From Dethiobacter sp. (GTDB taxonomy: Bacteria; Bacillota; Dethiobacteria; Dethiobacterales; Dethiobacteraceae), in the NCBI GenBank assembly GCA_020725465.1, contig DYEY01000026.1:1-64000 (forward strand): a stretch of DNA of 64,000 nucleotides. The letters run 5' to 3'. Of the stretch, positions 23,688 to 25,342 are shown piece after piece. The notes beneath the pieces were generated by a model that was not told the origin of the DNA, did no database searches, and worked only from the letters and a program-made list of their open reading frames with translations. Positions within the stretch are counted from its first letter, which is position 1; each line of letters begins with the position of its first letter. The translations under genes and the position numbers were made by a program.

Positions 23688-23726
23688 AAAATAAAGCACC
23701 CGGGCTGCTGTCCGCCGTCCGGGTGC
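23688..23726 (-). terminator. Terminator after the seleno-bacilliredoxin gene
   Basis: Stem GCACCCGG/CCGGGTGC (23696-23703 and 23719-23726), followed on the minus strand by TTTATTTT. Confidence 0.8.
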
Positions 23727-23733
23727 ATCTTTT

Positions 23734-24093
23734 TTAACTTTTTCGTTTGCCGTGGCTAAGAGCCTGCCGCAGGGCATCTGCGGTAATGCGGCGGTGCGAC
23801 GTATGCCATACGCAGCGGCCGTCTTCTATCAAAAGGACCTGGGGTGATTCGTGGCGCACCCCGGTCCTGGCGGCAACGGCGTCAGATACCTGGCGCGCCG
23901 CCTGGACCACTACCCGGCAGACATCCACTCCCGCTGACTGGGCCAGTGCCAAAAACTCGTCCACTTCCCGGTGGGCATTTCTGCTTACCGGTCAGGTGGC
24001 GCTGTGCTTGAAAATAAGAACCGGTCTGTGCTTAGAAGCCGAAAGGACATTTTCCAACTGGGGCAACTCTTCAATAACAATAAGTTTTGTCAT
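23734..24093 (-). CDS. Bacilliredoxin (YtxJ/BrxC-like) with in-frame UGA at the catalytic position, probable selenoprotein
   Basis: Reading from ATG 24093 (GGAGGAG 4 nt upstream) the frame runs MTKLIVIEELPQLENV... and meets TGA at codon 34 (23992-23994), then continues to a normal stop at 23734: 119 residues if the UGA is decoded. The family (DUF2847, monothiol bacilliredoxin) has the active-site signature TCPIS; here it is SAT-UGA-PVS, so the UGA is exactly where the redox cysteine belongs. Both sides are in one frame and are family-like. Two alternative hairpins directly downstream (23961-23999) could be the SECIS. Selenocysteine insertion is inferred; a nonsense-inactivated gene is the main alternative. 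It follows the M29 aminopeptidase gene by 22 nt. Confidence 0.85.
23961..23999 (-). promoter_or_regulatory. Candidate bacterial SECIS element
   Basis: Immediately after the UGA the minus-strand RNA can fold in two exclusive ways. One is CCGGT/ACCGG (23987-23991 with 23968-23972), extended by CCAC/GTGG, which encloses the UGA itself. The other is CCAC/GUGG (23971-23974 with 23961-23964) with a CGGGAA loop beginning 21 nt after the UGA. The second fits the usual bacterial SECIS spacing and has G near the loop start. Confidence 0.55.
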
Positions 24094-24115
24094 GCTCTCC
24101 TCCCCTTCCTGTTGG

Positions 24116-25342
24116 CTAAAAAGTAAAGTCTCCTGCTTTCATAACGGCAATTTCTGTGCCGTCAGCGGTTATACCGGTTACCGACATATCCCCGGAGCCG
24201 ATCATAAAATCTTCATGCACCAGGGAATCGTTGACTCCCGCCTGCAGCAACTCGTCTTTGTTCATAGCTTCCCCACCCTTCAGGGCTACCGGGTAGGCCT
24301 TGCCCAGAGCAAGGTGGCTTGCGGCATTTTCGTCAAACAGCGTATTATAAAAGAGCAGTTTCTGGTCAGAAACGGGGGAGTTGTGCGGTACCAGCGCCAC
24401 CTCCCCCAGGTAGCGGGAACCCTCATCGGTTTCAATCAGCCTTTTCAGCACTTCATAACCCTGGGCGGCGCTGAAATCTGTGACCCGGCCGTCACAGAAG
24501 GTAAGCGAGAAGCCGTCAATCAGGTTCCCGTTGTAATGCAGCGGCCGTGAACTGACCACCCTGCCGTTGGCGCCGTTTTTTTTCGGCAGGGTAAAGACCT
24601 CTTCGGTGGGCAGGTTGGGAATGAACTCCACCCCTCCCTGGGTAAAGCCGGAACCACCCAGCCAGATATGATCTGCCGGCAGTTCCACCTTAAGGTCGGT
24701 ACCCAGCCCGTTTTTAAACACAAGGTACCTGAACCGCCTGTCATTGAGAAACTCCCTTCTTTTCCTGAAGTTTTCCTTTTGCCTGGACCATGCCGCCACC
24801 GGATCTTCCCCATCCGCCCTCACCGCTTTAAAAATGGCCTGCCACAGTTTGTCCACAGCTTTGTCCGGCTCCCCGCCAAAGACTTTGCGGGCCCAGGAGA
24901 CGGTGGGCACCGCTACCACGCACCAGGCATTGCTATTGCCCATCAGCCTTTCCCTGTATTCCTCCAGCGCGCTGCTGGCGGCTTTATGGGCTCTTACCAG
25001 CCTGCCCGGTTCCACTTCTTTCATAAGCTCGGGATCAGCGGCGGCAATGGTGACAAAGGCCGCACCCTGTTTCAGGTTAGACAGGTACAGCTCTTTCTGC
25101 CACGACGGATACTCGTCAAAAACTTCCTCCGGGGCATGCAGGAACCTGATCTTCGCTAAAAGCTCGTCCCGCCAGCTCACAGCCACGTCCCTGGCGCCTT
25201 CCCTGTAAGCCATCTCCGCCAGCCGGCGGGTAAAAGATGCGCTTTCGATAGGAGATGTAATCACCAGGGGCTGCCCCGGCTGCAGGTTTATGCCGGTTTT
25301 TACAATCAGCCGGGCGTATTGTTCCAGATGAATTTCGTTCAC
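24116..25342 (-). CDS. M29 family aminopeptidase
   Basis: A 408-residue thermophilic-type metalloaminopeptidase (AmpS/PepS/aminopeptidase T). Typical features are YARLIVKTGINLQPGQPL at the N terminus, TVSWARKVF, the metal-ligand region with LPTEEVFTLPKK and the C-terminal VALVPHNSPVS, HLALGKAYP and HEDFMIGSGD. It removes N-terminal residues from peptides in the cytosol. It is 22 nt upstream of the seleno-bacilliredoxin gene, so the two probably share a transcript. Confidence 0.94.
   Translation of the reverse strand: MNEIHLEQYARLIVKTGINLQPGQPLVITSPIESASFTRRLAEMAYREGARDVAVSWRDELLAKIRFLHAPEEVFDEYPSWQKELYLSNLKQGAAFVTIAAADPELMKEVEPGRLVRAHKAASSALEEYRERLMGNSNAWCVVAVPTVSWARKVFGGEPDKAVDKLWQAIFKAVRADGEDPVAAWSRQKENFRKRREFLNDRRFRYLVFKNGLGTDLKVELPADHIWLGGSGFTQGGVEFIPNLPTEEVFTLPKKNGANGRVVSSRPLHYNGNLIDGFSLTFCDGRVTDFSAAQGYEVLKRLIETDEGSRYLGEVALVPHNSPVSDQKLLFYNTLFDENAASHLALGKAYPVALKGGEAMNKDELLQAGVNDSLVHEDFMIGSGDMSVTGITADGTEIAVMKAGDFTF

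Follow-up and report, generated by a model that had tools for sequence, protein, structure and literature searches.

A probable selenocysteine form of the monothiol bacilliredoxin BrxC (YtxJ)

The brxC locus and its reading frame

The window analysed here, a stretch of 64,000 nucleotides from an anaerobe of the Dethiobacter group, carries a brxC (ytxJ) gene on its minus strand at positions 23734–24093. The gene starts at an ATG (24093–24091) and runs through 33 sense codons to an in-frame TGA at 23994–23992 (codon 34), after which a further 85 sense codons lead to a TAA at 23736–23734. Reading through the TGA would give a 119-aa monothiol bacilliredoxin with selenocysteine (Sec) at residue 34. 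A strong, purine-rich Shine-Dalgarno region, GGAAGGGGAGGAGAGC, lies 5′ of the ATG (24094–24109, minus strand). These elements had been picked out in an earlier sequence-only reading, which gave no strand; they are confirmed here and the strand has been added. The same reading had anticipated that a conventional gene caller would start at a GTG at 23964 and lose the active site. The conventional ORF list for the locus does hold only a 76-aa fragment beginning at this GTG, with the active site missing.

An M29-family aminopeptidase gene (24116–25342, minus strand; identified from the ORF list and Pfam) ends 22 nt upstream of brxC, and the two genes are probably co-transcribed in the window genome. 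The brxC gene neighbourhood, including this pairing, is not conserved among the orthologues, and a plasmid search returned matches to the upstream aminopeptidase only. Just 3′ of the brxC stop, the sequence reads as a hairpin, GCACCCGG...CCGGGTGC, followed by TTTATTTT (23691–23727, minus strand), which is probably an intrinsic terminator; it does not appear in the terminator scan list for the minus strand because its loop exceeds the length that the scanner accepts.

Among the 46 ORFs in the window that reach 150 aa or more, 15 end in TGA as an ordinary stop, and the genetic code has therefore not been reassigned. Other frames in the window that can be extended through a TGA were considered and rejected as further cases: where they matched Pfam domains, the domain was confined to one side of the TGA, as expected of ordinary stops. 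An Rfam scan of the 64,000-nt window gave no match; we know of no Rfam model for a general bacterial selenocysteine insertion element (bSECIS).

Family assignment, orthologues and bacillithiol context

The read-through protein matched the Pfam BrxC family (PF11009; 2.8e-32, 111.1 bits against a cut-off of 24.2, residues 7–108) and the NCBIfam YtxJ family (TIGR04019; 1.1e-34, 118.5 bits against a cut-off of 77.25, residues 7–109). Both matches run across the UGA, which bears out the initial view that the two halves belong to one YtxJ/BrxC-type bacilliredoxin. The NCBIfam models that match the product are not selenoprotein models. The active site reads S-A-T-U-P-V-S, and the UGA falls, as had been claimed, exactly on the single catalytic Cys of the TCPIS motif. 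This motif, with one catalytic Cys, has been described for BrxC of Bacillus subtilis (PMC8301015).

The structure predicted for the product (pLDDT 89.9) adopts a thioredoxin fold in which residue 34 immediately precedes a helix spanning residues 35–48. This helix is the first to follow the first core strand, and residue 34, as its N-cap, occupies the site of the BrxC catalytic cysteine. The best fold match is the solved structure of a putative oxidoreductase, 3iv4 (TM 0.80/0.85, 36% identity), which shares the fold, is the sole sequence relative of the product in the PDB and is a more distant family member. The product offers no second redox residue to make up a CXXC or UXXC motif. By every sequence feature, the protein is a member of BrxC and very probably a new selenocysteine variant of it.

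UGA forms were sought within Bacillota, by whole-genome searches of 98 genomes of the class and 399 of the phylum. BrxC was found in 8 of 20 genomes from the same bacterial family as the window genome. Four of the eight, representing four genera, have UGA at the identical codon (the window genome, G000, together with G002, G009 and G011), and the other four, all from a single genus (g5), have a Cys codon, TGC or TGT, at the position of codon 34. All of the more distant BrxC proteins in the alignment also have Cys at the UGA position. In the wider phylum sample, BrxC was present in 29 of 399 genomes and UGA in none outside the family, and the UGA cases found so far are confined to that one family. 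A separate pattern scan of contigs included the catalytic Cys in its pattern and could therefore return Cys forms only. The closest named relatives, which come from that scan, are Dethiobacter metagenome-assembled genomes (Bacillota, Dethiobacteria); the earlier placement among the Peptococcaceae was wrong. In a phylogenetic tree, the eight family proteins made up one strongly supported group with one long-branched Cys sequence, whose placement is unsure. The Cys-bearing genus adjoins the UGA forms; on this topology it may have lost Sec to Cys, or may never have had it.

The eight BrxC proteins of the family, whether Sec or Cys forms, all share two further cysteines, C59 and C94; among the other aligned BrxC proteins C94 is absent and C59 rare. 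The two were considered as resolving cysteines and set aside, as the strand order probably puts both of them at the end of the sheet that is farthest from residue 34.

The description of the protein as a bacillithiol-type redoxin is supported by BshC, which catalyses the final step of bacillithiol synthesis and by which the capacity for that synthesis was judged. BshC scored over cut-off in the window genome, and likewise in every one of the 13 BrxC-bearing genomes examined. It was present in 15 of the 20 family genomes, of which seven (G001, G003, G005, G007, G012, G014 and G018) have BshC without BrxC; bacillithiol is therefore kept in these seven without a BrxC redoxin. An equivalog of the reductase YpdA/Bdr (TIGR04018) was over cut-off in none of the 20 family genomes, which gave only weak, thioredoxin-reductase-like matches. 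As YpdA/Bdr is a partner and not a defining sequence feature, its absence weakens the case for a Bacillus-type cycle, not that for BrxC membership. It also means that the brxC product is probably recycled via another reductase or by bacillithiol (BSH) alone.

The same lack of a YpdA/Bdr equivalog, with only weak thioredoxin-reductase-like matches in its place, could also point to a Sec protein whose partner is something other than bacillithiol, for example one engaged in a thioredoxin-like reduction fed by thioredoxin reductase, or a peroxidase. The BSH-dependent peroxidase activity of AbxC, a relative from Deinococcus (PMC8301015), and the two extra cysteines of the clade would be compatible with such a role. 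We nevertheless consider it unlikely, given that BshC occurs in every BrxC-positive genome tested, that TIGR04019 is a family linked with producers of bacillithiol, and that the protein has no second redox residue of the CXXC/UXXC type.

Decoding of the UGA codon

A block of eleven codons after the UGA (23959–23991, minus strand; CCGGTRAGY......GCCCACCRGGARGTGGAC) is conserved at the nucleotide level in the UGA genes beyond what the protein accounts for, as judged by codon and pS/pN comparison; the conserved block among these genes reads TGACCGGTRAGY......GCCCACCRGGARGTGGAC. When only codons with an invariant amino acid are counted, five of eight after the UGA are identical in the four UGA genes versus one of 39 elsewhere (Fisher p = 2e-4). 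The same comparison in the Cys genes (4 of 11 versus 37 of 66, p = 0.94) revealed no excess. Likewise, pS among the four UGA genes is near saturation outside the stretch (0.61–0.99) versus 0.23–0.52 in the 12 codons after the UGA, while pN is 0.17–0.35 before the UGA and in the C-terminal block.

This stretch contains a bSECIS-like hairpin, CCAC-CGGGAA-GTGG (23960–23973, give or take a base or two, minus strand), with an apical loop that starts 21 nt after the UGA and a G at loop position 2. The consensus of the hairpin in the UGA genes is CCAC(C)-RGGA-(G)GTGG, with a G within the first two positions of the loop; the spacing is 21–22 nt in all four, and the Cys orthologues have no bSECIS-like hairpin. 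In the published bSECIS model, the hairpin lies 16–37 nt after the UGA, has a G within the first two positions of its loop and is held to a limit of −7.5 kcal/mol (PMC13188914). The hairpins of the UGA genes agree with this model in their loop, their spacing and the length of their stem, and the isolated hairpin alone gives −3.2 to −7.6 kcal/mol versus the limit of −7.5. The window copy is the weakest of the four, with a stem of 4 bp versus 5 bp in the three UGA orthologues. As many as 772 of 2000 synonymous recodings were at least as stable as the window hairpin, and the folding of the 59 nt surrounding and following the UGA did not stand out from that of shuffled sequences (z −1.26). The support for a bSECIS is comparative, coming from the set of UGA genes, and the window copy alone is not significant.

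The window genome (2.9 Mb, 78 contigs) was searched family by family for the selenocysteine machinery. A single contig, C70, carries selA (C70:63282) adjacent to selB (C70:64652), with selD then following (C70:66588), and also a tRNA-Sec with anticodon TCA (C70:29255, 72.2 bits). SelB was over cut-off in all eight BrxC-bearing genomes of the family. The selD gene (C70:66588–67514) has a TGA, in frame, where its Sec normally lies (TCSGG-U-ASKMPAG); it is itself a selenoprotein gene (GGUASK), and a bSECIS-like hairpin lies 20 nt after its UGA.

Set against these results, the possibility that the gene is dead, with the UGA a real stop introduced by nonsense mutation or sequencing error, has little beyond the formal interruption of the frame to recommend it. 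The same UGA occurs in four genomes of different genera, pN lies well under the near-saturated pS on both sides of it, the frame has no other break, and the nucleotide conservation is limited to the stretch after the UGA. We regard this possibility as very improbable and, on the evidence of the orthologues, already refuted; the sequence-only reading had likewise held that chance would rarely place a stop at this codon, and three other genera share UGA at this very position.

Equally hard to credit is a truncated 76-aa protein made from GTG 23964, which is the ORF reported by the gene caller. Such a protein would be missing residues 1–43, including the invariant KHS-C-P-S motif, its GTG has no Shine-Dalgarno sequence 5′ of it, and the N-terminal 33 codons that it leaves out are under protein-level constraint. 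Decoding of the UGA as another amino acid, by Trp insertion or other suppression, has nothing in its favour beyond the open frame and can be dismissed almost entirely, as UGA ends those 15 of the 46 long window ORFs in the ordinary way, relatives invariably carry Cys, and never Trp, at the aligned position, and the genome has a complete Sec machinery.

The UGA is, then, very probably read as selenocysteine, as the relatives and the selenium machinery of the genome indicate. The original selenocysteine proposal had turned on two points. The first, the presence of the machinery, is borne out by selA, selB, selD and tRNA-Sec; on the second, the orthologues keep the frame intact and carry either UGA or a Cys codon at precisely this position. 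The RNA element, found only in the UGA forms, lends further support.

Relation to known systems and proposed function

The product shares with BrxC/YtxJ (PF11009, formerly DUF2847; TIGR04019) a full-length match, the motif KHS-x-x-(C/U)-P-(I/V)-S, the thioredoxin fold and a bacillithiol-producing host. It differs in having a Sec codon for the catalytic Cys, in the extra clade cysteines C59 and C94, and in a genome without a YpdA/Bdr equivalog. Selenocysteine glutaredoxins (PF00462, UxxC; e.g., that of Clostridium oremlandii) are also redoxins of a low-molecular-weight thiol with Sec at the N-terminal catalytic position; however, they belong to another family, use glutathione and have a dithiol-type UxxC rather than the monoselenol UPVS found here. 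AbxC, the atypical bacilliredoxin of Deinococcus (NF053651), has a BrxC-like domain and a single catalytic residue, but its motif is TCHKT with Cys, it has a C-terminal extension, and the brxC product scores weakly against its model (33.6 bits, cut-off 340).

A review of May 2026 lists 119 prokaryotic selenoprotein families, including glutaredoxin, thioredoxin and several thioredoxin-like families (PMC13188914); BrxC, PF11009 and TIGR04019 are missing from this catalogue. Within the openly accessible literature that was searched, no paper was found that joins YtxJ or DUF2847 with selenoproteins or selenocysteine, and publications combining bacilliredoxin or bacillithiol with selenium terms dealt, by their titles and abstracts, with other subjects. 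The Sec form of BrxC is apparently an unreported selenoprotein family, well supported computationally. As far as the searched literature goes, it is also the first case to connect selenium with the redoxins of bacillithiol. Its existence is only moderately surprising, given how common Sec forms are among enzymes of the thioredoxin fold, although it is new for the bacillithiol system.

Taken as a whole, the evidence makes it highly likely that SelB recodes UGA 34 and that the product is a selenoprotein version of BrxC (YtxJ), a monothiol bacilliredoxin that would strip its substrate proteins of bacillithiol. SelB and Sec-tRNA(UCA), guided by the bSECIS hairpin just downstream, would insert Sec at codon 34. 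In the most likely reaction, the selenolate would attack the mixed disulfide of bacillithiolated proteins; a bacillithiol selenenylsulfide would form, from which a second bacillithiol would then release the enzyme. BrxC of B. subtilis strips bacillithiol from GapDH, BrxB and Bdr (PMC8301015, PMC8945050), and by homology the brxC product should remove bacillithiol from proteins in the same way, but by means of a selenol. The advantage of selenium may lie in faster exchange and resistance to over-oxidation.

The case exemplifies a routine annotation error, in which gene callers begin a protein after its active site. The close relatives that bear Cys provide natural pairs for asking why a cell uses selenium in a single-residue redoxin. 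More tentatively, a Sec monothiol bacilliredoxin, so far found only in Dethiobacteraceae-like anaerobes, might strip bacillithiol from proteins or reduce peroxides without YpdA/Bdr, and be recycled by a route that is not yet recognised. If this is true, bacillithiol biology would include a selenol branch.
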